A stretch of 64,000 bases of DNA. Source: Egicoccus sp. AB-alg2. GTDB lineage: Bacteria > Actinomycetota > Nitriliruptoria > Nitriliruptorales > Nitriliruptoraceae. Below are positions 534 through 60,821 of the stretch, in pieces. The stretch lies in contig NZ_JBGUAX010000004.1 in NCBI RefSeq assembly GCF_041821065.1, positions 186,001-250,000 on the forward strand, given 5' to 3'. Within the stretch, counting starts at the first letter, position 1. Every line of letters begins with the position of its first letter. A program made the translations under genes and the position numbers. Below the pieces are notes generated by a model. That model was given only the letters and a program-made list of their open reading frames with translations, did not search any database and was not told where the DNA came from.

Positions 534-1640
534 ATGCGCACATCCAAGAAGCTCGCGCTGTTGGCCGCCGTGGGCCTCACCCTCGCGGCGACCGGGTGCG
601 GCGGGACCGACGGCGGGGACGCACCGGCCGAGGACGCCGCGACCCAGGAGGAGCCCACGACCGACGCGGGTGACGACGGGGACACGGCCGACGACGGCGC
701 CGAGGGCGAGGCCGCAGGCGGCGATGCCGCGCTCGAGGAGCTCGTGGCGGCGGCCGAGGCCGAGGGCAGCCTGACCTTCTACAGCGTGCCCGACGAGAGC
801 ATCGCCCAGGGCATCGCGGACGAGTTCAGCAGCCGCTACGACATCCAGGTCGACTTCGTCCGGCTCGTCAGCGCCGACCTCGCGCAGCGCTACAGCGCCG
901 AGGCGTCATCGGGCGCTCCGGCCGCCGACCTCATCCTCGTCTCCGACTCGCCGTTCCTCACCGAGGCGTTCGAGGAGAACTGGCTGACGCCGCTCTCCGA
1001 GGCGGGTCTGCCCGACTACGGCGACTTCCCGGAGGAGTTCGTGATCCGTGACGGGGCCTCCGCCATCGTCTCGATCAACCCGACCGTCATCGGTTACAAC
1101 ACCAACGAGGCCGAGGAGCCCGCGGACTGGGACGTGCTGGCCGACCCGGAGAACCGCGGCCGGATCGCGATCTCGGACCCGACCACGTCGGTCGCGAACC
1201 TGTTCTTCTGGGACCTGATCCGCGAGGAGTACGGCGACGACTTCCTGCGCTCGATCGGTGAAAACGACCCGATCTTCACGCCGGGCGCCGTGCCCTCCGC
1301 CCAGGCCGTCGGGGCCGGCGAGGTCATCTACGCCACGCCTGCCGTCAGCGCGATCTACGACAACCTCGCCGGTGAGGGCGCGCCGGTCGCCTACGGCTCG
1401 CCGTCGGTGACGACGGGCTCGGAGATCGCCGTCGGCATCTCCACCGAGGCGGCCAACCCGAACGCGGCGCGGCTGTTCGCCTGGTTCATCATGACCCAGG
1501 AAGGCAACGAACTGCTGACGCTGCCGTACAACACCGCCTCGCCGTACGGCGGCGGCCTCCCGGAGGACTACCGCCGTCCGAACAACGCCGCCCTGGCGAA
1601 CGAGGACCTGATCTACGAACTGCTGGGCGTGAATAACTGA
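534..1640 (+). CDS. ABC transporter substrate-binding lipoprotein, Fbp/family 1 type
   Basis: This 368-residue protein should be the extracellular, lipid-anchored binding protein of the importer whose permease and ATPase lie at 4115-7092. It starts with a lipoprotein signal (basic MRTSKK, hydrophobic core, LAATGC with Cys22) followed by an acidic, low-complexity Asp/Glu/Ala tether to about residue 62. The mature part opens with AEAEGSLTFYSVPDE and contains VIGYNTNEAEEPADW and TTGSEIAVGISTEAANP, as in the FbpA/AfuA-like extracellular solute-binding family 1. That family carries ferric iron but also organic acids and phosphonates. The CoA-transferase and PaaX genes between the transporter parts argue for an organic acid rather than iron here. 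The start has a GGGAGAG ribosome site. Confidence 0.85.
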   Translation: MRTSKKLALLAAVGLTLAATGCGGTDGGDAPAEDAATQEEPTTDAGDDGDTADDGAEGEAAGGDAALEELVAAAEAEGSLTFYSVPDESIAQGIADEFSSRYDIQVDFVRLVSADLAQRYSAEASSGAPAADLILVSDSPFLTEAFEENWLTPLSEAGLPDYGDFPEEFVIRDGASAIVSINPTVIGYNTNEAEEPADWDVLADPENRGRIAISDPTTSVANLFFWDLIREEYGDDFLRSIGENDPIFTPGAVPSAQAVGAGEVIYATPAVSAIYDNLAGEGAPVAYGSPSVTTGSEIAVGISTEAANPNAARLFAWFIMTQEGNELLTLPYNTASPYGGGLPEDYRRPNNAALANEDLIYELLGVNN

Positions 1641-1748: not shown

Positions 1749-2651
1749 ATGGTGGGCCAGGGAGCATCGATGACCGACGTTGGGATCCGGGCGGACCGCA
1801 AGGAGGCGCTGCGGCAGTACGCCGCGGAGGGCCTGCGGCCACAGACACTGCTGTTCACGATGCTGGGACACCACGTCGCCGGGCGTGACCTCGCGGTCGC
1901 CTCGGGCACCTTCATCGCGGCGCTCGAGCAGCTCGGGGTCTCCACGCAGGCGGCCCGCTCCACCCTCGCGAGGATGGTCCGTCGTGGCCACCTGCGCCGC
2001 CACCGCGTGGGACGCAAGGCATACTTCACCCTCACCGGCCGCCTGATGACGGTGCTCGAGGAGGGGGCGAACCGGCTGTTCGCGCCGCCGGTGCGCGTGC
2101 AGCCCGAGAACGTGTGGACGCTGCTGAGCTTTTCCATCCCCGAGGACCAGCGCGCCTTCCGGCACAACTTGCGCACGGCGCTGGCCTGGAGCGGGTTCGG
2201 CCTGCTGCGCAACGGCCTGTGGATCGCCCCCGGCGACGTGGACGCGACCGGGATGCTCGACACCCTGGACCTGCACGAACACGTCGAGGTGTTCGTCGCC
2301 CGGCCCGCGCCACCCACCGACCTGCACCGCATCGTCGGCGAAGCGTGGGACCTCGGCGTCATCGCGCAGGAGTACCGGGACTTCCTGCTGCGATGGGGCG
2401 GCGACGACTGGCGGGCCGGCACGACCGCGCTGGCGGCCCAGGTCCGGCTGCTCACCGAGTGGCAGCAGATCCTCGTCGACGACCCGGAGCTCCCGGTCAC
2501 CTACCTGCCGGCCGACTGGCCGGCACTCCGGGCCTACGAGCTGTTCCGCCAGCGTCTCGAGGAGATCGGCGACGACGCCGCTGCCGGGTTCGCGGAGATC
2601 CTCGACGCGCTGCCGCCCGCCGAGCTGCCGGCGCCAGAATCGGCCTCGTAA
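1749..2651 (+). CDS. PaaX-family transcriptional regulator (first of three)
   Basis: This 300-residue protein resembles the PaaX family, whose founding member represses phenylacetate catabolism and is released by an aryl-CoA. An N-terminal winged helix (about residues 25-100, with QAARSTLARMVRRGHLRR followed by the basic wing VGRKAYFTLT) precedes the PaaX central and C-terminal domains, with WTLLSFSIPEDQRAFRHNLR and a C-terminal helical part. Length is as usual for PaaX (about 300). GTG/ATG choices: ATG 1749 has GGGGAAGAG upstream; ATG 1770 also has a GGGAG site, so the start could be 7 codons later. It lies between an importer binding protein and a CoA-transferase and probably responds to the CoA-thioester made there. 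Confidence 0.85.
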   Translation: MVGQGASMTDVGIRADRKEALRQYAAEGLRPQTLLFTMLGHHVAGRDLAVASGTFIAALEQLGVSTQAARSTLARMVRRGHLRRHRVGRKAYFTLTGRLMTVLEEGANRLFAPPVRVQPENVWTLLSFSIPEDQRAFRHNLRTALAWSGFGLLRNGLWIAPGDVDATGMLDTLDLHEHVEVFVARPAPPTDLHRIVGEAWDLGVIAQEYRDFLLRWGGDDWRAGTTALAAQVRLLTEWQQILVDDPELPVTYLPADWPALRAYELFRQRLEEIGDDAAAGFAEILDALPPAELPAPESAS

Positions 2652-2717
2652 CATTCGTCAAGAACGTCGACGCCCGGCAGGAAACTGTGTAACGTTGATG
2701 TCGGGAGGTTGACGACG

Positions 2718-4013
2718 ATGACGTTCCAGGGATCGACAGCCGACGGTGACGAGACGGCCGGGGAGCAGCCGTTGGCGGGCCTTCGGGTCGTCGACCTCAC
2801 GCGTGCCCTGTCGGGCCCGTACGCCACGCTGCTTCTGGCGGGCCTCGGCGCCGAGGTGGTGAAGCTCGAGGAGCCGGTGCACGGCGACCTCGCCCGCGAC
2901 AACAGCCCCTACGTCGGCCGCGACGGCGTGGTGGTCGAGCGGCGGCACGAGGACGACCTGTCGGTCTCGCACCTGTCGCGTGCGCGCGGCAAGTACGGGA
3001 TCGCGGTGGACCTCAAACAGCCCGCGGGTCGCGACGTCTTCTTCGACCTTGTCGCCACCAGCGACGTCGTGGTCGAGAACTTCACCGCCGGCACGGCCGA
3101 CCGGCTCGGGATCGGCTACGGCGCGGCGGCCGAGGTCAATCGCGGGATCGTGTACTGCTCCCTCAGCGGCTTCGGGGCCGGGGCCTCGCAGGGCGCGAAG
3201 GCCATGGACATCCTGATTCAGGCCATGAGCGGCGCGATGTACGCGAGCGGTGCCGAGGGCGAACCGCCGGTGCGACTGGGACTGCCGGTCGCGGACCTGC
3301 TGGCGCCGGTCTTCGGCGTCATCGGCATCCTCGCCGCGTTGCAGCAGCGGGAGCGGACCGGACGCGGCCAGCACGTCGACGTCTCGATGCTCGGCGCGCT
3401 GACGTCGTTCGTGGCGGTCGAGAACTGGCGCGCCATGGAGTTGGCCGGCATGACGCTGCGCACCGGACCGACGCTGCAGCGACTGTGCCCCTTCGGCGTG
3501 TTCCCGTGCCGCGACGGTCACGTCGCGCTGGTCGCCGTGCACGACCCCCTCGCCAACGGGCTGTTCCGCGCGATGGGACGCCCGGAACTCGGCCAAGACG
3601 CACGGTTCGCCACCCGCGACGCGCGGGTGGCCAATGCGAGCGAGCTCGAGGACCTCATTGCCGCCTGGTCGAGCGATCGTGACGTGGCAGAGACGGTGGC
3701 CGCGCTGGAGGCCGAGCGCGTACCGGCCGCCCCGGTCCGTACCCCGATCGACGCCGTCGCGGCACCCGAGGTGGTCGCCCGGGGCGAGACCGATCCGTTG
3801 GTCCATCCAGTGCACGGGGCGCGCGAGGACCTGCGGACCGCGGGCGTCCCGATCCGCTTCTCGGACGCGTCCACGGGGTTCGCGCCGATGTTCCCGACCC
3901 GGGTGGGGGAGCACACTGCGGACGTCCTGAAGCGCCTGTTGGGTTACGACGACGAACGCCTCGCGTCACTGCGCAGCCAAGGGGCGATCGGGCAGGCCGA
4001 CACCGCCGAGTAA
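2718..4013 (+). CDS. Class III (CaiB/BaiF) acyl-CoA transferase
   Basis: This 431-residue enzyme belongs to the formyl-CoA transferase/CaiB family, which moves CoA between carboxylic acids through an aspartyl-CoA intermediate. The N-terminus LAGLRVVDLTRALSGPYAT with GAEVVKLEEP is the family hallmark. The usual catalytic Asp should be the one in KAMDILIQAMSGAM, near residue 160. GRGQHVDVSMLGAL is also typical. Start ATG 2718 was chosen over TTG 2709 because GGGAGG at 2703-2708 is correctly spaced for it. It probably activates the acid imported by the surrounding ABC system, giving the inducer for the adjacent PaaX regulator; the substrate is not visible from sequence. Confidence 0.85.
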   Translation: MTFQGSTADGDETAGEQPLAGLRVVDLTRALSGPYATLLLAGLGAEVVKLEEPVHGDLARDNSPYVGRDGVVVERRHEDDLSVSHLSRARGKYGIAVDLKQPAGRDVFFDLVATSDVVVENFTAGTADRLGIGYGAAAEVNRGIVYCSLSGFGAGASQGAKAMDILIQAMSGAMYASGAEGEPPVRLGLPVADLLAPVFGVIGILAALQQRERTGRGQHVDVSMLGALTSFVAVENWRAMELAGMTLRTGPTLQRLCPFGVFPCRDGHVALVAVHDPLANGLFRAMGRPELGQDARFATRDARVANASELEDLIAAWSSDRDVAETVAALEAERVPAAPVRTPIDAVAAPEVVARGETDPLVHPVHGAREDLRTAGVPIRFSDASTGFAPMFPTRVGEHTADVLKRLLGYDDERLASLRSQGAIGQADTAE

Positions 4014-4027
4014 ATGTCGGCGGACTA

Positions 4028-4056
4028 TTGACGGTCGTCACGCTTCGACGTACTGT
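4028..4056 (+). promoter_or_regulatory. Sigma-70-like promoter before the permease gene
   Basis: TTGACG (4028-4033), a 17-base spacer and TACTGT (4051-4056) match a -35/-10 pair with ideal spacing. They sit just after the CoA-transferase stop and 58 bases before the chosen permease start, so the permease-ATPase pair may have its own promoter. The -35 box would be the first codon if TTG 4028 were used as the start, which argues against that start. Confidence 0.55.
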
Positions 4057-4114
4057 TTCGTACGCGGGTCGCTGGGAGGCCGCGAGGTCGTCGGCCCGTT
4101 GGGAGAGGATGGGC

Positions 4115-5881
4115 ATGGCGACGGCAACGATTCGACCGACGACACCCCTGCAGCGGCTCGGCCTGGCCGTACGCAACCTGTCGCCCTTCGGAACCTTCAG
4201 CGTCGTCCTCGCGCTCGCCCTCGCCGGCCTGGCGATCATCCCGCTCGGTCGCGTCGTACTCGGGCTCTTCTACGTCGACGGTGCCCTCACGCTGGCCCCA
4301 CTGCGGGCGACCCTGGCCGTCCCGGACCTCGCCCGGTTGCTGACCAACACCGTCGTCGCCGTCGCCGTCAGCGGCGTCATCGCGCTGCTCATCGGTGCCG
4401 TGTTCGCCTGGCTGAACGAGCGCACCGACGCCCGCATGGGCTTCGCCACCGACGCGCTGCCGCTGTTGCCGTTCCTCCTGCCCCCCGTCGCCGGCGCCGT
4501 CGGGTGGGTCCTGCTGCTCTCGCCGCGGGCCGGTCTGCTCAATGCGTGGCTGCGCGATTTCCTGGGGCTGTTCGGCATCAACCTCGCCGAGGGGCCCTTC
4601 GACATCCACAGCTGGTACGGGCTGATCGCGATCTACGCGGTCTACCAGGTCCCGTACGCCTTCCTGCTGCTGTCCGCCGGGCTGCGCAACATGGATCCGG
4701 CGCTCGAGGAGCAGTCGCGCATGTCCGGCGCCGGCCTGGTCCGCACGCTGCGCAAGGTCACCCTGCCGGCGATGGCGCCGTCGATGGGTGCCGCCGTGCT
4801 GCTGATGGTGTGGACCGGCTTCGGGATCTTCTCGTTGCCGGCCATCGTCGGCACCCCGGCGGGCATCGACGTCCTCGCCGTGCGCATCGTGCGGCTGCTG
4901 TCGTTCACCTACCCACCGGAGACCGACGTCGCGATCGGCCTGAGCGTCTTCGTCGTGCTCTTCGTCGCCATCGCCTACACGGTCCAGTTGCGGCTGCTGC
5001 GGGCGGGCCGCCATGCGACCGTCGGCGGCAAGGGTCACAAGACCAAGCGCATCGAGCTTGGCCGGTGGCGGTGGCCGGCCCGGCTGCTGATGCTCGCCTA
5101 CGTCATGATCGCGGCCGTGCTGCCCATCGGCGCCCTGGTGCTGGTGTCGCTCAACGGCTTCTGGACGCCCGACATCGCTTGGGGCGACCTGTCGACCGAC
5201 GCGTTCCAGCGGGCCGTGTTCGGCGACCGTGTCACGCAGCGGGCCCTGCGCAACAGCCTGCTGCTCGGCGTCGGCGGCGGCCTGATCGGCATCACCGCGG
5301 CGGCCGTCATCGCCCTGTTCGTTGCCCGGACCCGCAGCACCTTCGCCCGGGTGCTCGACGGTTCGATCAAGCTGCCAGCGGCCATCTCCAACATCGTGAT
5401 CGCCGTGGGTGTGGTCCTGGTCTTCGCCGGACCTCCGTTCCGCCTCGGCGGAACGCTGATCATCCTGTTGATGGGCTATCTCGCCCTGTACATGCCGCAG
5501 GGTTCGGTGGCCGCCGACGCCGCCGCCGGCCAGGTCGGTAAGGAGCTGCCCGAGGCCTCCCACGTGTCGGGTGCGGGTCGTGGGCGGACCTTCCGCAAGG
5601 TCTACCTCCCGCTGATGGTCCCGGGGCTCGTCGCCGGGTGGGCCCTGCTGTTCATCCGCATGGCGGGGGACCTGACGGCCTCGGCGATCCTCGCTGGCAC
5701 CCGCAACCCGGTGGTGGGCTTCCGGATCCTCGAGGTCTACCAAGGCGGCTCCTACGCCATGCTCGCCGCCCTCTCCACGGTGCTCGTCCTTATCACCAGC
5801 ACGGTCCTGGTGCTCGTGACGGCCTATACCCGGCGACGCAGCAAGTGGGGCATCGAAACCAAGATCGGAGGGGTTGGATGA
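4115..5881 (+). CDS. ABC transporter permease, duplicated Fbp/ThiP-type
   Basis: This 588-residue membrane protein is a two-domain permease like FbpB/ThiP, in which both halves of the channel are fused. Each half has about six membrane segments and an EAA loop: LEEQSRMSGAGLVRTLRKV near residue 210 and LPEASHVSGAGRGRTFRKV near residue 485, both of the form that docks onto the ATPase. ATG 4115 is preferred because GGGAGAGG lies 6 bases upstream; ATG 4109 abuts that site, and TTG 4028 would coincide with a promoter box. The stop overlaps the next start as ATGA (5878-5881), so it is translationally coupled to the ATPase. Confidence 0.9.
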   Translation: MATATIRPTTPLQRLGLAVRNLSPFGTFSVVLALALAGLAIIPLGRVVLGLFYVDGALTLAPLRATLAVPDLARLLTNTVVAVAVSGVIALLIGAVFAWLNERTDARMGFATDALPLLPFLLPPVAGAVGWVLLLSPRAGLLNAWLRDFLGLFGINLAEGPFDIHSWYGLIAIYAVYQVPYAFLLLSAGLRNMDPALEEQSRMSGAGLVRTLRKVTLPAMAPSMGAAVLLMVWTGFGIFSLPAIVGTPAGIDVLAVRIVRLLSFTYPPETDVAIGLSVFVVLFVAIAYTVQLRLLRAGRHATVGGKGHKTKRIELGRWRWPARLLMLAYVMIAAVLPIGALVLVSLNGFWTPDIAWGDLSTDAFQRAVFGDRVTQRALRNSLLLGVGGGLIGITAAAVIALFVARTRSTFARVLDGSIKLPAAISNIVIAVGVVLVFAGPPFRLGGTLIILLMGYLALYMPQGSVAADAAAGQVGKELPEASHVSGAGRGRTFRKVYLPLMVPGLVAGWALLFIRMAGDLTASAILAGTRNPVVGFRILEVYQGGSYAMLAALSTVLVLITSTVLVLVTAYTRRRSKWGIETKIGGVG

Positions 5882-7118: not shown

Positions 7119-8339
7119 TTAGGTCGCGGCGCGGGCGACGAAGCGCATCGGCACGGAGTTGGTGCCCCATTCGGCCCACTTGGCCATCACGATCTCGCCG
7201 TTGCGCTCGAAGTGGGAGCTGCGGCGCAGCGCCTCCTCGAGGGTGATGGTGAACATCATCCGCGCCAGGGGCGCGCCCGGGCAGGTGTGGGTGCCGGCAC
7301 CGAATGCGATGTGGTCCTTGAGGTTCGGACGGTGCAGGCGGAACTCCTCGCCGTCCTCGAACACGGCCTCGTCGCGGTTGGCCGACGTGTAGACCAGCGA
7401 GATCGGTTCGTCCTTGCGGATCAGGGTGTCGCCGATCACGACGTCCTCGCGCGAGGTCCGTGCCATGCCCCGGTAGGGCGTGTACAGGCGCAGGAACTCC
7501 TCCACGGCGGCCGGCACCAGACTCAGGTCTTCACGTAGCTGACGCTGCAATTCGAGGTCCTGTGCGAGGTGGACGAACATCGTGCCGATGAAGACGCTGG
7601 GGGCCACCATGCCGGTGACCAGCAGCTGGCGGACACAGCCGAGCACCAGGTCGGGGGGCAGGGGCTCGCCTTCGAACTCGCCGGCGAGCAGCGCCGTCGT
7701 GAGGTCGTCGGCCGGGTCCATGGGCGCGCGACGACGTTCCTCGATCACCTCGGCGGCGATCTCGTACAGGCGGCGGCTGAGCCGCTTCACCTGCTCGTCG
7801 TCGACGACCTGGATGGCGGCGACGTAGGCGGCGCTGACCTCCTTGATCAGCTCCGACAGCTCACGCGGCAGGTTGAAGAACGCGGCGAACACGTGCGCCG
7901 GGAACTTCTGGGCGTAGTCGACGGCGATGTCGAAAGTCTCGCCCTGGATCAGCCGGTCGAGCAGGTCGACGGCGAAGGTGCGGACGACGGGTTCGAGCTG
8001 GGCCATCTTCTCGCGGGTGAAGAACCGATTGATGATGCGCCGGTAGGCGGTGTGCTCCGGCGGGTCGAAGTGCAGCGGTGGCCGTCGCCCAGTGAAGGCG
8101 AACTTCGGGACCGTGTTCTGCACCGACGTCGTGAACCCGTCCACGTCGCGCAGGACGCGCGTGACGTCCTCGTAGCGGAGCAGCGCCCAGAAGCCGTCGT
8201 AGCTCTGACTGCGGGCGACCGGGCAGGTCCGCCGCATCTCCCGGTAGAGCTTGTGCGCGCTGGTGAACGTCTCGGGGGCGAGTGGGTCGAGGTCGTGCCG
8301 CTCCCGTGCCCGGTCCGCGCTGCCATTGGTGTTCGTCAT
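7119..8339 (-). CDS. Cytochrome P450 (first of two related)
   Basis: This 406-residue soluble P450 carries the haem loop FGAGTHTCPGAPLARM with the ligand Cys near 353, and the K-helix ExxR in VEEFLRLYTPYRG. The I-helix reads LLVTGMVAPSVFIG where P450s normally have A/G-G-x-D/E-T, so the acid-alcohol pair used to split oxygen is missing. The second P450 (13545-14741) shares this oddity and clear sequence similarity throughout. ATG 8339 was chosen over ATG 8369 because GGGAG lies at the right distance. No ferredoxin or reductase gene is nearby. The substrate may be an aromatic acid or ether, given the context, but this is inference. Confidence 0.9.
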   Translation of the reverse strand: MTNTNGSADRARERHDLDPLAPETFTSAHKLYREMRRTCPVARSQSYDGFWALLRYEDVTRVLRDVDGFTTSVQNTVPKFAFTGRRPPLHFDPPEHTAYRRIINRFFTREKMAQLEPVVRTFAVDLLDRLIQGETFDIAVDYAQKFPAHVFAAFFNLPRELSELIKEVSAAYVAAIQVVDDEQVKRLSRRLYEIAAEVIEERRRAPMDPADDLTTALLAGEFEGEPLPPDLVLGCVRQLLVTGMVAPSVFIGTMFVHLAQDLELQRQLREDLSLVPAAVEEFLRLYTPYRGMARTSREDVVIGDTLIRKDEPISLVYTSANRDEAVFEDGEEFRLHRPNLKDHIAFGAGTHTCPGAPLARMMFTITLEEALRRSSHFERNGEIVMAKWAEWGTNSVPMRFVARAAT

Positions 8340-8364
8340 CGCGAGTCTCCCGCCTCGACCACCG

Positions 8365-8410
8365 ATCATAAAGCAAAAACTTGACGGGGGTCCACTTTTG
8401 TGTCAAAGAT
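8365..8410. promoter_or_regulatory. Divergent promoter region with TTGAC-N16-GTCAA dyad
   Basis: Between the P450 and the MFS gene lies an unusually AT-rich patch. On the minus strand TGGACC (8389-8394) and TATGAT (8365-8370) with an 18-base spacer could drive the P450. On the plus strand TTGACG (8381-8386) starts a weaker candidate for the MFS operon. An inverted repeat TTGAC (8381-8385) and GTCAA (8402-8406) overlaps both and could be an operator. Confidence 0.45.
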
Positions 8411-8439: not shown

Positions 8440-9654
8440 TTGCAGCGACACGGGCGTGGTGGTGTCGCCGGGCGTTCCCCGCTGCCGGTGAGCATGCTGG
8501 TGTCGATTAGCGGCGCGGCGCCGGCCATTGCGGTCCCGGCGCTCTACCCACGCATCGTCGTCGACCTGCCCGGCCTCACCCCGCAGCTGCTCGGCATCGC
8601 CACGACGGCGTTCTTCGCGCTCTCCTCGGTGACGGCCCCGCTCGGCGGGCGGCTGGCCGACCGCCTCGGTGGCGGCCGCGGCGTGCAGGTGTCGGCGGCC
8701 GGTTCGCTGCTCGTGCTCGTTGCGATCGCCGTGGCCCCCACCCCGGCCGCCCTGCTCGCGGCGATGACGGCCGCGGGCGTGGTCCACGGCTTCGGGCTCA
8801 CGGTCTCGTCCCTGGCATTGAGCTCGGCCCTGTCCGGCGCGAGTGCGGCCACGCAGTTCGGTATCAAACAGAGCTCGATCCCTATGGCGTCGCTGCTCGC
8901 GGGGGCCGGATTGTCGCTCGCCGCCGGGGTCTCGTGGCGGGTGGTGCTGAGCGCCTTCGTCGTCTTCCCGGCCGCCGCGTGGGGGCTGCGTCCGCCGCCC
9001 GAGGTCGGTGGACGGCTGGCCGTCGGTGCCGCTCCACCGTCGCGCCATGTGTTGAACGCCCGCCTCGTGCGGCTGCTGGCCGTCGCCGCGCTCGCCGGGT
9101 TCGGGGTCTCGAGCCTGGCCACCTTCGGCGTGCTGAGCCTCGTGCGCAGCGGCTGGTCCGAGGCCGCCGCCGGCACCATCTACGCCACGGCGGCCGTGGT
9201 CTCGCTATGTTCGCGGGTCCTCGTCGGCGCCGTCGCGGACCGACGTGGGGACTCCGCGATCGCCATCGCCGGGGCGCTGCTGCTCGCCGGTGCGGTGGGT
9301 TTCGGGCTGCTCGGGGCCGGTGGCCGGGCCGCGGCGGTCGTCGGTCTGCTGCTCGCCTACGGGCTCGGCTGGAGCTACACGGGGTTGATGATGTTCGCGG
9401 TCGCACGTGCGAACCCCGGACGTGTCGCCCGCGCGACCGGCTGGCTCCAGGCCGGTGCGGCGGTCGGCATCAGCGCGGGTCCGGCGTTGTTCGGGTTGGT
9501 CGAGAAGACGGCAGACCCGGGTGCTGCGTGGTGGACGATGGCCGCCTGCAGCGGCCTCGCCGGCCTGCTCGCGATCCTGAGACGGGGACGGGGTGTTGCC
9601 GGCCGGGCCGACGCCAGCGTCGTCGCCGACCCGACACGGGCTGAGCGCCGATGA
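8440..9654 (+). CDS. MFS transporter
   Basis: This protein of about 404 residues has some 12 hydrophobic segments and the major-facilitator loop motif GGRLADRLGGGRG between helices 2 and 3. It should move a small organic compound, probably a carboxylate, across the membrane by proton coupling. The start is uncertain: TTG 8440 has GGGAGG 5 bases upstream and keeps a basic N-terminus before helix 1; GTG 8488 and ATG 8494 are in frame but lack a ribosome site. Its stop overlaps the next start as ATGA (9651-9654), tying it to the dehydratase-like gene, so substrate and pathway are probably shared. Confidence 0.85.
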   Translation: MQRHGRGGVAGRSPLPVSMLVSISGAAPAIAVPALYPRIVVDLPGLTPQLLGIATTAFFALSSVTAPLGGRLADRLGGGRGVQVSAAGSLLVLVAIAVAPTPAALLAAMTAAGVVHGFGLTVSSLALSSALSGASAATQFGIKQSSIPMASLLAGAGLSLAAGVSWRVVLSAFVVFPAAAWGLRPPPEVGGRLAVGAAPPSRHVLNARLVRLLAVAALAGFGVSSLATFGVLSLVRSGWSEAAAGTIYATAAVVSLCSRVLVGAVADRRGDSAIAIAGALLLAGAVGFGLLGAGGRAAAVVGLLLAYGLGWSYTGLMMFAVARANPGRVARATGWLQAGAAVGISAGPALFGLVEKTADPGAAWWTMAACSGLAGLLAILRRGRGVAGRADASVVADPTRAERR

Positions 9655-11951
9655 CGTCGCCGTCCCCCGTCACCGTGCCGGAGCCCGACCTCCCCGTCGT
9701 CGCGGTCGTGGGCGAACGGCTTCCCCGCGCTCTGCCCGTCGCCGCCGGCGTGACGCCACTCGAGGTCCTCGGCGGGCCGTCGCTCGCCGGAGGATGGGCG
9801 GCTGCTGCGACCGCACGGTCCGCGCCGACCCTCCCCGACGCCGAGGCGGTCGTCGACCACCTGCTGGGACTGGCCGACGCCGGCGACGTTGCCGGACTGC
9901 TGCTCGGCCACGGCCCCGCCCCGATGCCACGGGCGTTCGCGATCCTGCGCGAGCTCGCGCGTCGGGAGCCCGGCCGGCTGCCGCCCCTGCACTTCCTCGA
10001 CCTGCTGACGCTGCCGCACCCGACGACCACGCACTACAACCGGCGCCGACTGCAGGCGGCGGGCGCCTGGCTCGGGACCCTCACGGGCGTCCGTCCGACC
10101 GACACGGCCCTGGCCCGGGCCATCGAGCAGGAGACGGCCGAGGCCGGCGCGCTCGCGGCCCGCGACGCCGCCCGCTCCAGGGACGATGTCGGGGCGCCGG
10201 ACGCGACGCGGGTGTTCCTCTCGGGCGCGCCGTTCGGCCCCCGGCTCCTCGACGACCTGGCCCGGCTCGGCTACCGGGTCGTCGGGGACGAGCCGACGGC
10301 CGCGACCCTGAGAATGTTCGCCGGCGGGGGCGACGGCGTGTCCGATCCGTGGGAGGTGCTGGCCCGCCGCTGGCAGCTCGCCGACTCCCCGTCCGGGCGC
10401 ACGGCGGGCCGGTCCCGGGCCCTGTGGCTGGCCGACATCGCCCGAGATCGTGACAGCCACCTGCTGGTGCACGTGACGTCGCCGGTCGACGAGTCGGGAC
10501 CGTGGCTGGTGCCCTGGCTGGTCGACGCGCTCGCCGGCACCGCGACGTCCGTGGTCGTCCTCCACCTCGACGACGTCGCCGGAGGCGTGGACGCCGAGGC
10601 GGCCGGGCAACTCGAGGCCGCCGCGCGCGGCAACGGCAGCCCGCCGGTCGTCGGTTGGGCCCCTGCACCCGTCCGGCGCGCGCCGGGCCGACGTCGTCGG
10701 GCCGTGCTGGCCAGCGGCGAGGACGCCGGGACCCATCAGCGGCAGTGGTTCGCCGACCTGCGGCGGCGGGTGGAGGACGGCGATCCCTTCGTGGTCGTCG
10801 GCGCGGACGCACCGCAGGAGATCCTGCGGGCGATGGATGTGCCGTACGTGGTCACGCAGTGGTGGTCGTCGATCGTCGCGGCGAAGCAGGCGACGGGACG
10901 CTACGCCCGGGCTCTGGCCGCCCGCGGCTACCCGACCGACGTCGAGCCCTACAGCGCGCAGGGCTTGGCGGCCGCGGTCGTCGGACCCGACGACGAGGCG
11001 CCGTGGGGCGGGCTGCCGACACCCGACGTCGTCGAGGCCACCCTGGGGACTCCGGCCACCTACGACCTCTACGACGCCTGGGCGGGGGAGACGGGCGCGG
11101 AGTTCCTGGCCTTCGAGCGCTCCACCGACGTGCGGGGGTCGGTCGACGAGCCGTGGTGGGACCTGCTACCGCACCACTGGTACGACGTCCTCGAGCCGGT
11201 CCGGCTCGACCTGCTCGAGGGGGAGCTCCGCGCGGCCGTCGGTCGGCTCGAGCGACGGACGGGCCGGCGGTTCGACCCGGACCGTCTCCGGGCGGTCATG
11301 GATCTCGTCAACGAGCAGGCCGAGCACTACCGGGCGACACGCGACCTGATCGCCCGCACCAGGCCGGCGCCGGTGTCGGTCGCAGACACCATGCCCGCGA
11401 CGATGGTGCCCCAGTGGCACCGGGGGTCGACGTGGGGACGCGACGCCGCCGCCGCTCTTCACGAAGAGGTCCGCGCCCGCGTCGAGGCGGGGCAGGTGGC
11501 CTGTGACGGCGAGCGGCTGCGCCTGCTGTGGGCGGGGCGCGGGCTGTGGGGTGACCTCGGCTTCTACCAGCAGCTCGAGGCCAGCCACGGTGCCGTCTTC
11601 GTGTGGTCCATGTACCTCGGTCTCGCCGCCGACGGCTACCTGCGCTACGTCGGCGACCACGATCCGCTGCGCGCCCTGGCGGCCCGCTTCCTCACGATGG
11701 GTGACGAGCTGCGCTTGCCGGGGTGGGCCGGCCCGTGGCACGTGAAGGAGGCGCGCACGCACGGCGTCGACGGTGCCGTGGCGATCGACGACGCCGATCC
11801 GTTCGTCGTGGCCGACCTACGAGCGGCGGGCATCCCGACGCTGCAGCTTCCGGTCGACAACATGGGCTCGACCAACGCCCCCGCCGTCACCGCCGCGCTC
11901 ACGCGGTTCGTCGAGGACCTCGCCACTGGCGAGCACGACCCCTACCTCTAG
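9651..11951 (+). CDS. Fused 2-hydroxyacyl-CoA dehydratase (HgdB/BcrBC)-like protein, nearly cysteine-free
   Basis: This 766-residue protein looks like two family halves in one chain. Residues about 1-335 (with LPPLHFLDLLTLPHP and WLGTLTGVRPTDTALARAI) and about 345-766 (with PQEILRAMDVPYVVTQWWSS, LLWAGRGLW, and LQLPVDNMGS near the end) resemble the two subunits of 2-hydroxyglutaryl-CoA dehydratase/benzoyl-CoA reductase. Those enzymes bind [4Fe-4S] clusters through cysteines and need a radical-generating activase. Here I find a single Cys (about residue 618) and no activase gene in the window. The protein therefore probably keeps the fold and CoA-ester binding but not the iron-sulfur chemistry. 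It is coupled to an MFS gene and flanked by P450s. Confidence 0.7.
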   Translation: MTSPSPVTVPEPDLPVVAVVGERLPRALPVAAGVTPLEVLGGPSLAGGWAAAATARSAPTLPDAEAVVDHLLGLADAGDVAGLLLGHGPAPMPRAFAILRELARREPGRLPPLHFLDLLTLPHPTTTHYNRRRLQAAGAWLGTLTGVRPTDTALARAIEQETAEAGALAARDAARSRDDVGAPDATRVFLSGAPFGPRLLDDLARLGYRVVGDEPTAATLRMFAGGGDGVSDPWEVLARRWQLADSPSGRTAGRSRALWLADIARDRDSHLLVHVTSPVDESGPWLVPWLVDALAGTATSVVVLHLDDVAGGVDAEAAGQLEAAARGNGSPPVVGWAPAPVRRAPGRRRRAVLASGEDAGTHQRQWFADLRRRVEDGDPFVVVGADAPQEILRAMDVPYVVTQWWSSIVAAKQATGRYARALAARGYPTDVEPYSAQGLAAAVVGPDDEAPWGGLPTPDVVEATLGTPATYDLYDAWAGETGAEFLAFERSTDVRGSVDEPWWDLLPHHWYDVLEPVRLDLLEGELRAAVGRLERRTGRRFDPDRLRAVMDLVNEQAEHYRATRDLIARTRPAPVSVADTMPATMVPQWHRGSTWGRDAAAALHEEVRARVEAGQVACDGERLRLLWAGRGLWGDLGFYQQLEASHGAVFVWSMYLGLAADGYLRYVGDHDPLRALAARFLTMGDELRLPGWAGPWHVKEARTHGVDGAVAIDDADPFVVADLRAAGIPTLQLPVDNMGSTNAPAVTAALTRFVEDLATGEHDPYL

Positions 11952-12051: not shown

Positions 12052-13482
12052 ATGGGAACGCACGTCGAACACCCCTCGATCTTCGGACGCCTACGCGTCG
12101 CCCTGACGGCGGGCATCGCCGTCGCGCTCGCACTGATACCGCTCGCGGTCGCCGCGCCGGCCAGCGCGCAGACCGCCTCGGAATCCGGCGTCGCGGGCGT
12201 CCTGCCGGACGGAACCCGCTACGGGTTCATCCGTCCGCCCGACTGGAACGGCACGCTGCTGCTCGACCCGGACTTCATGGGCTTCGTGGGTGGCAGCGTC
12301 CCACCCACGCCGACCGGTGCGAACCGGTGGCTGCTCGACGCGGGGTACGCGATCGGTGGGACGAGCCGACTGCCGACTCTCGATCGCGTGCAGTCGAGCG
12401 TGGCCGCGCTGCTGTCGGCGGCGGACCTCTTCACCGAGGAGTTCGGGGCGCCACGGCGAACCGTCGTCACCGGAAGCTCGCTCGGCGGGTTCACGGCGCG
12501 AGCTGCGGTCGAGGCCGCTCCCGAGCGTGTGGACGGGACCGTCGCGTTCTGTGGCGGCGGTGCCGGTGTCGTGGCCGGCTGGAACCAGAAGCTCGACGCA
12601 GCCTTCGTCGCCAAGACGCTGCTCGCCGACGGTGACGACGGCCTCGAGTTGGTCGGGATCGGCAACGCCAACGCGGCCACCGCCGCCTGGAACGCGCTGG
12701 TCGAGGAGGCCGCCTCGACCCCCGAGGGACGCGCCCGGCTCGCCCTGGCGGCCGCCGTTGGACAGATGGCGACGTTCGCCGACCCGGCGATGCCACAGCC
12801 GGAGGCCCGCGACTTCGACCTCCAGCTCGAGCACCAGATCGCCACCTTCCAGCTCTTCGTGCGGCCCAGCATCCGGGCCACGATCGAGTCGGTTGCCGGC
12901 GGCAACATCTCGTGGAACCACGGGGTCGACTACCGACAGGCACTGGCCCGTTCCGGCGGACGACCGCTGGTCGACCGCGTCTACCGAGCGGCCGGACTCG
13001 ACCTGAACGCCGATCTCGACGTCCTGGCCGAGGCGCCCCGTGTGGCTGCGGATCCGGATGCGGTCGCCTGGGCCGAGGACAACGTCGCCTACACCGGGGA
13101 CACCGGGGGTCGTCCCGTCCTGACGCTCCACACGGCCGGTGACCGTTCCGAGTCCACGGCATTCGACGACGCCTACGCCCAGGCGTTCCGTGCCGCCGGC
13201 GCCAACGCCCTGCTCCGTCAGGCGTGGGTCGAACGGGCCGGACACTGCAGCTTCACCCAGGCCGAGCGTCTGGCTGCGGTGCTGACGCTCGTCGAGCGGA
13301 TCGAGACGGGGCGGTGGGCCGCTGCTGCGAGCCCGTCCGGATTGAACGACCTGGCGGCGCGGCTCGACGCCGGCTCGCCGCTGGATTTGGGCACGGCCGC
13401 GTTCTTCCGCCCTGCGCCGCAGCAGTTCCTGCGGCCGTGGGACGGCAGGCACATCGGTGGCTACGTGCCCTGGGTGAACTGA
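12052..13482 (+). CDS. Secreted alpha/beta-hydrolase
   Basis: This 476-residue protein starts with a Sec signal peptide (basic region, then a long hydrophobic core ending APASAQ near residue 42). The nucleophile elbow GSSLGG (in VTGSSLGGFTARAAVEAAP) and a late AGHCSFT, which could supply the catalytic His, mark an alpha/beta-hydrolase. An Asp in LHTAGDRSES may complete the triad. It probably cleaves an ester outside the cell; release of aromatic acids from plant or lignin-derived esters would suit the neighbourhood, but this is inference. ATG 12052 has GGGAGAG upstream. It converges on the second P450, with a strong hairpin between them. Confidence 0.75.
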   Translation: MGTHVEHPSIFGRLRVALTAGIAVALALIPLAVAAPASAQTASESGVAGVLPDGTRYGFIRPPDWNGTLLLDPDFMGFVGGSVPPTPTGANRWLLDAGYAIGGTSRLPTLDRVQSSVAALLSAADLFTEEFGAPRRTVVTGSSLGGFTARAAVEAAPERVDGTVAFCGGGAGVVAGWNQKLDAAFVAKTLLADGDDGLELVGIGNANAATAAWNALVEEAASTPEGRARLALAAAVGQMATFADPAMPQPEARDFDLQLEHQIATFQLFVRPSIRATIESVAGGNISWNHGVDYRQALARSGGRPLVDRVYRAAGLDLNADLDVLAEAPRVAADPDAVAWAEDNVAYTGDTGGRPVLTLHTAGDRSESTAFDDAYAQAFRAAGANALLRQAWVERAGHCSFTQAERLAAVLTLVERIETGRWAAAASPSGLNDLAARLDAGSPLDLGTAAFFRPAPQQFLRPWDGRHIGGYVPWVN

Positions 13483-13544: not shown

Positions 13545-14741
13545 TCAGGCCGGTTCGACGCGGAGCGGCACGCCGAGGGTGCCCCACTCGGGCCAGCGGG
13601 TCATCGTCACCTCGCCGTCGAGTTCGATGCTCCGGGTGGTCGTGAGCAGCTCCTCGAGCGCGGTCTGCAGCATCAGGCGTGCCAGCGACTCGCCGGCACA
13701 CCGGTGGGGTCCCAGCCCGAAGGCGATGTGCCGGTCGATGTTCGGACGGTTCAGCACGAACATGTCCGGGTCGTCGAACACGTCCTCGTCACGGTTGGCC
13801 GAGGCGTAGACGAGCGCTATCGGTTCGCCCGGCTCGATGGTGCGGCCGCGGACGGTCACCTGACGGGTCGCCGTGCGTGCGAAGCCCCGGTAGGGCGTGA
13901 ACAACCGCAGGTACTCCTCGATCGCGGCCGGCAGCAGCGCGCGGTCCTCGCGCAGCTGCTGCTGCAGCTCAGGGTGCTGGGCCAGGTGGGCGAACATGGT
14001 GCCGATAAAGACGCTCGGCGCGATCATGCCGACGACGATCATCTGCCGGATCGTCCCGAGCACCAGGTCGGACGGCAGCGGTTCGCCCTGCCACTCCTTG
14101 GCGAGCAGGGCGCTCGTCAGGTCCTCGTCGATCGGCAGTGGCTGTTCGGTGCGCATGCGGATGATCTCGCGCGCGATCTCGTACAGCTCGATGCTCGTGG
14201 ACTTAACGAGCTCGTCGCGTGCCTCCTGCAGTGCCCGGTTGTAGCGGGCGGTGACCTCGCGGATCTGCAGGCCGAGGTCGACCGGCAGCCGGAAGAACTC
14301 GGCGAACACGTGGCCCGGGTAGCGGTGCGTAAAGGCGTCGCACAGGTCGCCGCCGCCGGCGGCGACGTACGGGGCCAGCAGTTCGGCGGCGATGCGCTGG
14401 ACCGTCGGCTCGAACCGGCGCACCTGCTCGGGGGTGAAGAACCGGTTGATGACCTGACGGTAGGGGGTGTGCTCCGGCGGGTCGAGGTGCAGCGGAGGGC
14501 GCCGACCGGTGAACGCGACCTTGGGGACGACGTTCTGGACCGAAGTGATGTAGGTCTCCGGTGCGGTCAAGGCCGCGACGACGTCGTCGTGCCGGAGCAT
14601 CGCCCAAAAGCCGCCGAACGCGTCGCTGTGCGCGACCGGGCAGGTCTGCCGCAGCCGGGCGAACTCCTCGTGTGCCGAGGTCAGGTCCTCGGGCGCCAGC
14701 GGATCGAGCTCGCTGGGGCCGGCGTCGGCGGGCATCACCAT
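13545..14741 (-). CDS. Cytochrome P450 (second of two related)
   Basis: This 398-residue P450 has the haem loop FGLGPHRCAGESLARLM (ligand Cys near 348) and the K-helix motif in IEEYLRLFTPYRG. Its I-helix MIVVGMIAPSVFIGTM again lacks the acid-alcohol pair and is almost identical to the first P450 (7119-8339). The two also share ENVVPKVAFTGRRPP-like and HLDPPEHTPYRQVINRFF-like stretches, so they are clear paralogues. Start ATG 14741 has GGGAGA 7 bases upstream. No redox partner gene is near. The position beside pobA/pca would allow a role in oxygenating or O-demethylating an aromatic acid; that is inference. Confidence 0.9.
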   Translation of the reverse strand: MVMPADAGPSELDPLAPEDLTSAHEEFARLRQTCPVAHSDAFGGFWAMLRHDDVVAALTAPETYITSVQNVVPKVAFTGRRPPLHLDPPEHTPYRQVINRFFTPEQVRRFEPTVQRIAAELLAPYVAAGGGDLCDAFTHRYPGHVFAEFFRLPVDLGLQIREVTARYNRALQEARDELVKSTSIELYEIAREIIRMRTEQPLPIDEDLTSALLAKEWQGEPLPSDLVLGTIRQMIVVGMIAPSVFIGTMFAHLAQHPELQQQLREDRALLPAAIEEYLRLFTPYRGFARTATRQVTVRGRTIEPGEPIALVYASANRDEDVFDDPDMFVLNRPNIDRHIAFGLGPHRCAGESLARLMLQTALEELLTTTRSIELDGEVTMTRWPEWGTLGVPLRVEPA

Positions 14742-14827: not shown

Positions 14828-18074
<3,247 letters not shown>

Positions 18075-18078
<4 letters not shown>

Positions 18079-18677
18079 GCGCGACCGAACCGACCCCCGA
18101 GTTGCTGCCGCAGACCCCGTCGCAGACCGTCGGGCCGTTCTTCCACTACGCGCTCACCGAGGAGCCGATCGACCGTCTCGATCCCGACGGGCAGGCCGGC
18201 CAGGCGATCGTCGTGCACGGCACCGTCCGCGACGGCGCGGGCGACCTCGTGTGCGACGCGATGATCGAGGTGTGGCAGGCCGACGGCGGCGGTCGCTACC
18301 GCCACCCCGCCGACGGTCGGTCGGCCGACGTGCCGAGCTCCTTCATCGGCTTCGGCCGCGTCGCCACCGCGAAGGAGACCGGCCAGTTCGCGGTCGCGAC
18401 CGTGATGCCGGGCACCGTCCCGGGACGTGACGGCACGGTGCAGGCCCCCCACCTGAACGTGCAGATCTTCGCCCGCGGCCTGCTCAGTCACCTGCACACC
18501 CGCATCTACTTCGAGGGTGCGGCCGCCAACGACGCCGACCCGGTGCTCGCCGGCATCCCGCCCGAACGGCGGCACACGCTGCTCGCCCGGCCGGACGGTG
18601 AGCAGGACGGCCTGCCCCGCTACCGGTTCGACGTGGTCCTCCAGGGCGAGGACGAGACCGTCTTCTTCGACGCCTGA
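18075..18677 (+). CDS. pcaG: Protocatechuate 3,4-dioxygenase alpha subunit
   Basis: This 200-residue subunit pairs with PcaH. The N-terminal TPSQTVGPFFHYAL is the PcaG signature, followed by the intradiol fold (GDLVCDAMIEVWQADGGGRY, APHLNVQIFARGLLSHLHTR, ending RYRFDVVLQGEDETVFFD). The alpha subunit lacks a full set of iron ligands, as expected. ATG 18075 overlaps the pcaH stop. Confidence 0.95.
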
Positions 18678-18690
18678 GGAGCGATGCCCC

Positions 18691-19530
18691 ATGGCCGACA
18701 TCGTCTCCCTCGCCGACGCCATCGCCACGCACGTGCGCGATGGCGACACGGTCGCGATGGAAGGCTTCACACACCTCATCCCGTTCGCCGCCGGGCACGA
18801 GATCATCCGGCAGGGCCGGCGCGGCCTGACCCTGATCCGGATGACGCCGGACCTGATCTACGACCAGCTCATCGGTGCCGGCTGCGCCAGCAAGCTGGTG
18901 TTCTCGTGGGGTGGCAACCCCGGGGTGGGCTCCCTGCACCGCCTGCGCGACGCGGTCGAGCACGGCTGGCCGAACCGGCTCGAGCTCGAGGAGCACAGCC
19001 ACGCGGCCATGGCCGCCGCCTTCCACGCCGGTGCCGCCGGCCTGCCGTTCGCGATGCTGCGCGGCTACGCAGGTTCCGACCTGCGGCGCGTGAATCCCAA
19101 CATCCGCACGGTCACGTGCCCGTTCACCGGCGAGGAACTCGCGGCCGTGCCCGCGCACCGGCCCGACGTCAGCATCGTCCACGCCCAGCGGGCCGACCGG
19201 CAGGGCAACGTGCTCGTCGAGGGCATCGTGGGGGTGCAGAAGGAAGCCGTCCTGGCGGCCCGACGGTCGGTCGTCACAGTCGAGGAGGTCGTCGACGACC
19301 TCGCCGCACCCAGCCCGAACTCCGTCATCCTGCCGTCGTGGGCCGTCGACGCGGTGGCGGTCGCACCCCGCGGCGCCGCACCGTCGTACGCGCACGGCTA
19401 CTACGACCGGGACAACGCCTTCTACCGCGCATGGGACGCGATCTCGCGAGAACGCGAGACGTTCGAGGCCTGGATCGACGAGCACGTGCTGGCGGCCGGC
19501 ATGATCGGCCCGAGAGGAGCGTCGGGATGA
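18691..19530 (+). CDS. pcaI: 3-oxoadipate CoA-transferase subunit A
   Basis: PcaI with PcaJ transfers CoA from succinyl-CoA to 3-oxoadipate. The 279-residue protein opens with SLADAIATHVRDGDTVAMEGF and has the class I alpha-subunit pattern GRRGLTLIRMTPDLIYDQLI and GNPGVGSLHRLRDAVE. It is the longer, glutaconate-CoA-transferase-like form common in actinobacteria. ATG 18691 follows TGAGGAG; 13 bases separate it from pcaG. The stop overlaps pcaJ as ATGA. Confidence 0.9.
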   Translation: MADIVSLADAIATHVRDGDTVAMEGFTHLIPFAAGHEIIRQGRRGLTLIRMTPDLIYDQLIGAGCASKLVFSWGGNPGVGSLHRLRDAVEHGWPNRLELEEHSHAAMAAAFHAGAAGLPFAMLRGYAGSDLRRVNPNIRTVTCPFTGEELAAVPAHRPDVSIVHAQRADRQGNVLVEGIVGVQKEAVLAARRSVVTVEEVVDDLAAPSPNSVILPSWAVDAVAVAPRGAAPSYAHGYYDRDNAFYRAWDAISRERETFEAWIDEHVLAAGMIGPRGASG

Positions 19531-20297
19531 GCGCCTACACCTCCGACGAGCTGATGACGGTCGCGGCGGCCCGCGCACTGCGCAACGACGACGTCTGCTT
19601 CGTCGGCATCGGTGCGCCGTCGGCCGCCTGCAACCTCGCCCGGCTCACCCACGCGCCCGACATCGTGCTCATCTACGAGTCGGGCACGCTGCAGACGCGG
19701 CCTGAGGTGCTCCCACTGTCCATCGGCGACGGTGAGCTGTGCGAGACCGCGTTGACCACCGTGCCGGTCGTGGAGATGTTCCAGTACTGGCTCCAGGGCG
19801 GGCGCATCTCCAAGGGTTTCCTCGGCGGCGCGCAGATCGACCGTTTCGCGAACATCAACACCACGGTCATCGGTGAGTACGACCGTCCGAAGGTGCGCCT
19901 GCCCGGCGGTGGTGGTGCGCCGGAGATCGCCGGCTCGTGTGGCGAGGTGCTGATCACGGCCAAGCACTCGCCTCGGACCTTCGTCGACGCGGTCGACTTC
20001 GTCACCTCCCTCGGGCACGGCAGCGGGCCCGACGCCCGGCGTGCGGCCGGGCTCACGACCGCCGGTCCGGTGCTGGTCATCACCGACCTGTGCCTGCTGG
20101 CACCCGACGCGCAGACCCGCGAGCTCGTGGTCACGTCACTGCACGAGGGCGTCACCCGTGAACAGGTGGCCGAGGCGACGGGCTGGCCGGTCCGCTTCGC
20201 CGACGAGGTGGCGACCACCCCGCCGCCGAGCGACGAGGAGCTCCGGGTGCTGCGCGACCTGCACGAACGCACGGAGCAGGCCCATGCCGGCAGCTGA
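19527..20297 (+). CDS. pcaJ: 3-oxoadipate CoA-transferase subunit B
   Basis: This 256-residue beta subunit carries IVLIYESGTL, whose Glu is the expected catalytic residue that forms the glutamyl-CoA intermediate in class I CoA-transferases. LPGGGGAPEIAGSCGEVLI and FVTSLGHGSG are also typical. It overlaps pcaI by 4 bases and the following pcaB by 14 bases. With PcaI it produces 3-oxoadipyl-CoA for PcaF. Confidence 0.9.
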   Translation: MSAYTSDELMTVAAARALRNDDVCFVGIGAPSAACNLARLTHAPDIVLIYESGTLQTRPEVLPLSIGDGELCETALTTVPVVEMFQYWLQGGRISKGFLGGAQIDRFANINTTVIGEYDRPKVRLPGGGGAPEIAGSCGEVLITAKHSPRTFVDAVDFVTSLGHGSGPDARRAAGLTTAGPVLVITDLCLLAPDAQTRELVVTSLHEGVTREQVAEATGWPVRFADEVATTPPPSDEELRVLRDLHERTEQAHAGS

Positions 20298-25586: not shown

Positions 25587-25643
25587 CCACGATCCGACGA
25601 GTCGAACCAGTGACCGCGATGACGACGGGCGAGCCCCCGCACC

Positions 25644-26234: not shown

Positions 26235-26236
26235 GC

Positions 26237-27535: not shown

Positions 27536-27568
27536 CCCCCGTCCTCGACCCGAAGAGAAGGAAGCACC

Positions 27569-28456: not shown

Positions 28457-28496
28457 CCGATCACGCGACGAAGACACGACAGCGACAGGAGTGACC

Positions 28497-28958: not shown

Positions 28959-28980
28959 CACCCACCCCTGCGGAGGCACC

Positions 28981-29853: not shown

Positions 29854-29920
29854 TGACGTCGTCGGCCCGCCACGCGGCCGATCCGCGGTGCGGGCGACCG
29901 GGGGGTGAGGGAGCGAACAG

Positions 29921-38375: not shown

Positions 38376-38391
38376 CTGACTATGCGGTCAG
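38376..38391. promoter_or_regulatory. TetR-type operator 1
   Basis: CTGACTATGCGGTCAG is one of four near-identical 16-base sites. It lies in the divergent region between the GNAT gene and the epoxidase operon, about 24 bases before the GNAT start, and could affect the GNAT promoter. Confidence 0.6.
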
Positions 38392-38447
38392 TCTGCGGTC
38401 CGGTGACGGCGGTGCGCAGGGCCGATGGACCCGATCCACCGGGGCGG

Positions 38448-38476
38448 TTGCGCCTGACTGTCCGGTCAGTCATACT
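38448..38476 (+). promoter_or_regulatory. Epoxidase-operon promoter with TetR-type operator 2 in its spacer
   Basis: TTGCGC (38448-38453) and CATACT (38471-38476) are 17 bases apart, and the spacer is almost exactly the operator CTGACTGTCCGGTCAG (38454-38469). A repressor bound there would block RNA polymerase. The first gene starts at 38505. The matching sites at 45828 and 45913 suggest one regulator for both arms. Confidence 0.7.
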
Positions 38477-38504
38477 TGGGCGTGTCGTCGGGAGAGGAGC
38501 CACC

Positions 38505-60807: not shown

Positions 60808-60821
60808 GCCGTCTCCTCCGG

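Follow-up and report, generated by a model that had tools for sequence, protein, structure and literature searches.

The 64,000-nucleotide stretch of Egicoccus sp. AB-alg2 DNA analyzed here (contig NZ_JBGUAX010000004.1, positions 186,001 to 250,000; hereafter the window) raises the question of what a relative of the [4Fe-4S] 2-hydroxyacyl-coenzyme A (CoA) dehydratases and benzoyl-CoA reductases might do with a single cysteine, in the midst of an aerobic aromatic-catabolic island. The open reading frame (ORF) in question, at 9651–11951 on the forward strand, starts with ATG and encodes 766 residues. From its family and predicted fold, the loss of the cluster ligands and of the activase, the linkage to a CoA-transferase, the thioester contacts that are kept, the selection acting on the gene, and its catabolic surroundings, we favor, with somewhat more confidence than doubt, a cluster-free, non-redox acyl-CoA enzyme that acts after CoA transfer and feeds hydroxycinnamate-type aromatic acids to the 4-hydroxybenzoate/protocatechuate route.

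The family membership of the protein was examined by profile comparison, which placed it well inside Pfam HGD-D (PF06050; 1.2e-38, 134 bits against a cut-off of 28.4, in three stretches). Its two halves correspond to the two subunits of the known heterodimers:

9651–10685, forward strand: N-terminal half, residues 1–345, BzdN/HadC-like domain without cysteine
10686–11951, forward strand: C-terminal half, residues 346–766, BzdO/HadB-like domain with the sole cysteine, at residue 618

The C-terminal half, from about residue 346, was matched directly by HadB, BzdO, and MbdO, and HadB also gave the protein its top sequence scores in NCBIfam and the PDB. The N-terminal half matched a profile of its split homologues (3.6e-25), and this profile matched BzdN (5.4e-33) and HadC (9.4e-24); PF06050 also recognized each half of the relatives separately. 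An AlphaFold model made with a 40-sequence alignment (predicted local distance difference test score of 85, predicted template modeling score of 0.88) matched MbdNO, HadBC, BzdNO, and the double-cubane cluster protein DCCP in the PDB, the first three being the best, with target-normalized template modeling scores of up to 0.81. The matches covered both subunits of the heterodimer, and split pairs exist in Actinobacteria. By profile and predicted fold, the window protein therefore belongs to the HGD-D superfamily, with its alpha and beta subunits fused, as the original prediction had proposed and as the structure modeling suggested there bears out. The gene shows GC contents of 0.80/0.55/0.92 by codon position, and pairs of orthologues are under purifying selection, with ratios of nonsynonymous to synonymous substitution (dN/dS) of 0.08–0.27. 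A chimera or a pseudogene was ruled out, as the fusion is common to a clade of 49 rows and dN/dS is low. No second HGD-D gene was found in the genome of the window.

The fate of the catalytic residues was followed by mapping an alignment of about 50 fused members of the family, 33 split members (two adjacent genes), and 9 canonical sequences onto BzdO and HadB. In the structure of BzdNO, Cys95, Cys128, and Cys380 of BzdO are the ligands of the catalytic [4Fe-4S] cluster, Glu65 (and His131) serves as acid/base with Ser44 close to the substrate, and Tyr97, Tyr298, and Gln274 contact the thioester (PMC11971306). The position of Cys95 is occupied by Glu432 in the window protein (Glu in 46/49 fused and 24/33 split members), that of Cys128 by Thr467 (Ser or Thr in 49/50 fused members, Gly in 28/33 split members), and that of Cys380 by Pro717 (Pro in 50/50 fused members, variable in split ones), next to an Asp716 that is invariant in fused members (50/50). 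Of the 85 family members, 82 have lost all three cluster cysteines in the catalytic subunit. The N-terminal half of the window protein has no cysteine at any of three invariant canonical columns; the equivalent of BzdN C327 is Asp280 (Asp in 71 of 74 relatives), and another canonical N-half column is still Cys in 23 of the 74. The sole cysteine, which had been noted at about residue 618, is C618; it was ruled out as a catalytic or ligand residue, as it is distant from all ligand columns and missing in 20 of 85 relatives (Cys in the other 65). The acid/base position has also changed: Glu65 of BzdO (Glu55 of HadB), which is Glu in 9/9 canonical sequences, is replaced by Gln403 in the window protein and by Gln in all 49 fused and 33 split members with a residue there, a rule broken in the family only by L115a/b. 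Ser37 of HadB corresponds to Ala385, and Gln274 of BzdO to Arg630 (Arg in 50/50 fused and 31/33 split members). The window protein thus fails every tested hallmark of [4Fe-4S] dehydratases/reductases and should therefore not carry that name, and the loss of the cluster ligands claimed in the original prediction is confirmed position by position.

The residues that now stand at these positions raise the alternative of a metal-dependent enzyme, in which a mononuclear metal would be bound by the oxygen donors Glu432, Ser/Thr467, and Asp716, perhaps joined by Asp280 of the N-terminal half. The near constancy of these three residues among fused members and the replacement of the N-half cysteine by Asp are in keeping with such a site. 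However, the prevalence of Gly at the Cys128 position of split members, together with Glu432 in only 24 of the 33, makes a shared site unlikely; a metal site common to all family members is doubtful, and we consider this alternative quite improbable.

The activase of HgdC type (TIGR00241) was searched for genome-wide. No match was found in the whole genome of the window, which is 98% complete, so that the earlier claim of a missing activase gene extends to the genome; the one good PF01869 match, at C2:445164, was ruled out as an activase, being a protein of the N-acetylglucosamine-kinase (NagK-like) type. The same profile found no activase in any of the 13 genomes, that of the window included, that hold only cluster-free members. 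By contrast, TIGR00241 activases were present in both tested genomes that hold canonical HGD-D pairs as well, a Chloroflexi metagenome-assembled genome (MAG; locus L097) and Rhodococcus jostii, and several of them adjoin those pairs. In R. jostii (G428), a member of a genus usually regarded as aerobic, two canonical cysteine-bearing HGD-D pairs were seen (C3:228393-231618 and 263983-267152; L118 and L119), each beside an activase.

An oxygen-sensitive [4Fe-4S] enzyme whose cluster ligands come from a partner or another source would agree with the family membership and with three relatives (L097, L100, and L101) in which two or three ligand cysteines persist in the catalytic subunit. It is at odds with a protein of 766 residues whose one cysteine lies off the ligand positions and is absent from some relatives, with the missing activases, and with hosts from aerobic groups, and we regard it as close to refuted.

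The distribution of the family was determined by a contig scan of genomes, in which 80 of 186 loci were kept; neighborhood counts were made over 86 loci. The protein is not a singleton: it belongs to a large cluster-free clade, encoded with the halves fused or as two adjacent genes at no fewer than 80 loci in Proteobacteria, Actinobacteria, and Chloroflexi, and the hosts are mostly from aerobic groups. Fused members, mostly of 760–820 residues, occur in Sphingomonas, Novosphingobium, Caulobacter, Niveispirillum, Alteromonas, Klenkia, and Modestobacter, and split members in Amycolatopsis, Rhodococcus, Nocardia, Pseudonocardia, Streptomyces, Sinomonas, Microbacterium, and others. A tree built from 100 sequences placed the clade as monophyletic against canonical members, on a long branch (Shimodaira–Hasegawa-like approximate likelihood ratio test, SH-aLRT, 99); the deeper branching order is unsure, owing to long basal branches. 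The fused forms make up one clade of 49 rows, the window among them (SH-aLRT 100), and a single fusion event is therefore probable. Within the class of the window, the gene was found in 3 of 66 genomes and in none of three congeners, and this sporadic occurrence suggests that it has probably moved horizontally. In a genome of the same taxonomic family (G407; L015/L016), a major facilitator superfamily (MFS) gene is followed by two overlapping genes for the halves, one of 440 codons and the other of at least 368.

The relatives that retain cysteines throw light on how the cluster may have been lost. The closest of them (L097:7945-9213, in the Chloroflexi MAG FK_Sedi_B_Bin.16) has three ligand cysteines with canonical spacing (DLCRYC, LSCDG, ASCTQ) and nevertheless Gln at the Glu65 position; no N-half gene was found beside it on its short contig. 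A second subfamily with two of the three ligand cysteines is found on a Novosphingobium plasmid (L100:5991-10251) and a Croceicoccus plasmid (L101), and Gln is already present at the Glu65 position of the Novosphingobium relative. The N half of these two is an unannotated “hypothetical protein” (hhalign E-value of 2.9e-14), and a long CoA-transferase gene lies between it and the C half. As these three relatives keep two or three cysteines, the ancestor of the clade probably held a cluster, and the occurrence of Gln alongside retained cysteines suggests that the catalytic Glu was replaced before the cluster was lost. A further Chloroflexi contig (L115; G595:C194) carries two divergent HGD-D pairs; a separate type III CoA-transferase accompanies each, one pair lies beside a cytochrome P450 gene, and the aligned C-half positions hold no ligand cysteines.

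The most constant neighbor of the family is a type III (CaiB/BaiF) CoA-transferase. Its gene was found near HGD-D genes in 79 of 86 loci; in 67 of 80 it lies immediately upstream, on the same strand. The window holds a counterpart, which the original prediction overlooked, along with a PaaX-family regulator and an ATP-binding cassette (ABC) transporter, as it covered immediate neighbors only:

2709–4013, forward strand: CaiB/BaiF (type III) CoA-transferase, orthologue of the partner copy found directly upstream of HGD-D genes in 67 loci

This protein shares a mean identity of 62% (maximum 69%) with partner copies and of 34% with other copies, and on these identities it is identified as the orthologue of the HGD-D partner. 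The thioester contacts also persist: Tyr97 and Tyr298 are retained as Tyr434 and Tyr655 in every fused and split member. About 30 residues are invariant, mostly family-specific, including the polar Q403, K412, H590, R591, D661, and R665 and a Trp-rich set (W404, W405, W452, W502, W510, W589, W595, W633, and W696) that fits an aromatic substrate.

A non-catalytic acyl-CoA-binding protein or pseudoenzyme, which would sequester, channel, or sense the CoA ester or serve as a specificity subunit of the CoA-transferase, has to be weighed against these data. The joint loss of the redox ligands and the catalytic Glu, with the thioester-contacting residues kept, is what such a protein might show, and the constant pairing with a CoA-transferase agrees with it. 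However, about 30 residues invariant across phyla, polar ones included (R630 in all but two split members), are more than binding needs, and several loci hold two or three CoA-transferases but one HGD-D protein. This conservation makes an enzyme more likely than a plain binding protein; we consider the latter rather unlikely, and it and a mononuclear metal site are the main mechanistic rivals. Of the two possibilities raised in the original prediction, the non-redox CoA-ester enzyme is thus the likely one, with the tyrosines kept, the Glu replaced, and a CoA-transferase as partner.

To place the enzyme in a pathway, the gene content around it was considered. The other genes of the first half of the window are as follows:

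534–1640, forward strand: periplasmic solute-binding protein of an ABC importer
1749–2651, forward strand: PaaX-family regulator, with a counterpart in 26 of 86 relatives' loci
4028–5881, forward strand: ABC importer permease, 72% identical to a permease near the HGD-D gene in L018
5638–7092, forward strand: ABC importer ATPase with a TOBE_2 domain; the ORF start lies upstream of the domain
7119–8369, reverse strand: cytochrome P450, 70% identical to a P450 near the HGD-D gene in L083
8251–9654, forward strand: MFS transporter, overlapping the fused gene by 4 bases; true start probably downstream of 8251
12052–13482, forward strand: weakly alpha/beta-hydrolase-like protein with an apparent N-terminal hydrophobic segment and relatives in 20 HGD-D loci
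13545–14741, reverse strand: cytochrome P450, 69% identical to a P450 near the HGD-D gene in L018
14828–16000, reverse strand: pobA, 4-hydroxybenzoate 3-monooxygenase, over the curated cut-off, inside a longer mechanical ORF
17086–18677, forward strand: pcaH and pcaG, protocatechuate 3,4-dioxygenase subunits, over the curated cut-off
18684–23685, forward strand: rest of the beta-ketoadipate set (pcaIJ-like CoA-transferase, pcaB-like lyase, pcaD-like hydrolase, pcaF-like thiolase)
24420–31459, forward strand: tripartite ATP-independent periplasmic (TRAP) transporter (DctP, DctQ, DctM), then short-chain dehydrogenase/reductase (SDR), MaoC hydratase, amidohydrolase-2, and acyl-CoA ligase

The ATG of the fused gene overlaps the MFS stop codon (ATGA), and the MFS–HGD-D order is repeated at the split pair of L016/L019. 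The cotranscription of the two genes proposed earlier is supported by this overlap, as a prediction from sequence. The aerobic aromatic island likewise stands; the MFS gene and the flanking P450 genes do not define the context, since an MFS gene adjoins HGD-D only in the class of the window and P450 genes occur in 15 of 86 loci. For the CoA_trans gene at 18684, a steroid IpdAB-type role was considered and dropped given its pobA-pca neighbors. Further aromatic catabolism was observed at 33000–64000, with PaaA (38382–39455), PaaX-family regulators (34048 and 46051), an aldehyde dehydrogenase (44290), a monooxygenase resembling salicyloyl-CoA 5-hydroxylase (46911–48560), CoA ligases (56609 and 60822), and a thiamine pyrophosphate enzyme (58385–60985).

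The SDR, MaoC, amidohydrolase, and ligase set corresponds to the cou/phd genes of p-hydroxycinnamate beta-oxidation (PMC4737184, PMC12753220), in which, in R. jostii, the amidohydrolase CouO frees p-hydroxybenzoates that lead to protocatechuate (PMC4737184). The piperine pathway paper mentions neither an HGD-D protein nor a CoA-transferase (PMC12753220). Genes for PobA, Cou proteins, or hydroxycinnamoyl-CoA hydratase/lyase (Ech) were found within 10 kb of HGD-D at 17 other loci and on the Croceicoccus plasmid, spanning Proteobacteria and Actinobacteria. pobA occurred at 7 of 80 loci and Ech at 6 of 80, which is well above the roughly estimated chance level of about 0.4% per gene (our own figure for a single-copy gene in a 4–5 Mb genome; loci are not independent and catabolic genes cluster anyway).

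The substrate might belong to another class (hydroxy- or dicarboxylic acids, peptides, or esters), with the phenolic-acid genes nearby by coincidence. CapA-type genes (54 of 86 loci), TRAP (39) and TonB (32) genes, and those of CocE-type hydrolases (29) are commoner neighbors than phenolic-acid genes; the window CoA-transferase scores best, far below the cut-off, to mesaconate/glutarate transferases; and both annotated plasmid clusters have MmgE/PrpD genes nearby, their regions also containing P450, tannase/feruloyl esterase, CapA, and CocE genes. Against this stand two unrelated hydroxycinnamoyl-CoA routes (cou-type and Ech-type) and pobA beside HGD-D in different phyla, the tannase/feruloyl esterase genes, the PaaX-family regulators, and the Trp-rich invariant set, and we judge another substrate class rather unlikely. 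PaaX and ABC importers are typical of actinobacterial loci, and TRAP, TonB, and MarR of sphingomonad loci. The genome of the window has three CapA-type genes, elsewhere than at this locus. For the CapA/PGA_cap-type gene at L022:13625-14734, NCBIfam gave a single lead, a weak match to MslH, an epimerase of lasso-peptide Trp, and the CapA-type partner may be a metal-dependent epimerase instead of a capsule gene.

With a CoA ester as substrate, an aromatic acid as its acyl group, and acid-base chemistry, as we infer, the reaction would proceed as follows. An imported aromatic acid would receive CoA from the partner CoA-transferase, and the acyl-CoA would bind in the old BzdO/HadB substrate channel, with Tyr434 and Tyr655 still holding the thioester oxygen. 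Acid-base instead of radical chemistry would follow, there being no cluster, activase, or electrons, with catalysis by family-specific residues at the former cluster and acid sites (Glu432, Gln403, Arg630, His590, Asp716, and the Trp-rich pocket). The product, probably hydroxycinnamoyl-CoA or an equivalent, would enter beta-oxidation or the hydratase/lyase route to 4-hydroxybenzoate and pobA-pca. Without a ketyl radical, dehydration of a 2-hydroxyacyl-CoA in the Had/Fld manner is chemically unlikely; our weakest step, a low-confidence guess, is therefore that a more acidic position undergoes a reaction of the elimination/lyase or isomerase type.

Several observations weigh against this proposal. 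The window CoA-transferase lies 5.6 kb from the fused gene, not adjacent to it, with ABC importer genes, a P450, and the MFS gene between them; phenolic-acid genes are near HGD-D in only about one-fifth of loci, catabolic genes tend to cluster regardless, and the commoner CapA, TRAP, CocE, and TonB neighbors name no substrate. The Glu432 position is Arg in 5 of 33 split members, so that no single catalytic base is universal, and the mechanism is drawn from alignment and predicted fold.

On a wider view, which we hold with slightly less than even confidence, radical chemistry was given up along with the cluster throughout the clade, the acyl-CoA pocket was retained, and a new redox-neutral reaction with aromatic CoA esters arose in aerobes. 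This would form an undescribed CoA-transferase-dependent entry for phenolic acids, with intermediates of three, two, and no cysteines surviving. No paper on a cluster-free member or its gene cluster was found in the literature searched, mostly open-access journals, and the clade, though common, is apparently undescribed there. The novelty proposed earlier lies in function only, as the sequences are already public and annotated, where annotated, as “2-hydroxyacyl-CoA dehydratase family protein”. Such annotation implies a radical enzyme of strict anaerobes and leads pathway reconstruction astray in Sphingomonas, Novosphingobium, Amycolatopsis, Rhodococcus, and others. Should the clade be catalytic, it would clearly exemplify the conversion of a radical iron-sulfur enzyme to a redox-neutral one, with the order of changes traceable in intermediates such as L097, and it would define a new step in the bacterial use of plant phenolic acids.

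Among known systems, cou/phd p-hydroxycinnamate catabolism (Rhodococcus, Corynebacterium) has the SDR, MaoC, amidohydrolase, ligase, and pobA-pca genes in common with the window; to our knowledge, these pathways include neither an HGD-D protein nor a CaiB/BaiF CoA-transferase. The DCCP/E. coli YjiM type shares Pfam HGD-D with the window protein at a weak sequence match, but has double-cubane cysteines and an ATPase partner, and the window protein has neither. The (R)-2-hydroxyisocaproyl-CoA dehydratase system HadABC-I pairs a type III CoA-transferase with an HGD-D heterodimer, as the window family does; in the window protein, however, the cluster cysteines and the HadI activase are missing and HadB Ser37 and Glu55 are replaced by Ala and Gln, and ketyl-radical dehydration is therefore not expected. 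The phenyllactyl-CoA dehydratase system FldABC-I has the same pairing, and the window protein differs from it in lacking the cluster cysteines and the FldI activase. The likeness to the Had/Fld pairs is one of layout only. From the class I benzoyl-CoA reductases BzdNO/MbdNO (PDB 8s02, 9g87, and 9gai), the window protein differs in having no ligands for a double-cubane or an aqua-[4Fe-4S] cluster, Gln for Glu65, Arg for Gln274, no BzdPQ-type activator, fused subunits, and an aerobic-type aromatic island. With them it shares the predicted fold of both halves and the tyrosines of the CoA-thioester channel, and like them it would probably act on aromatic CoA esters.

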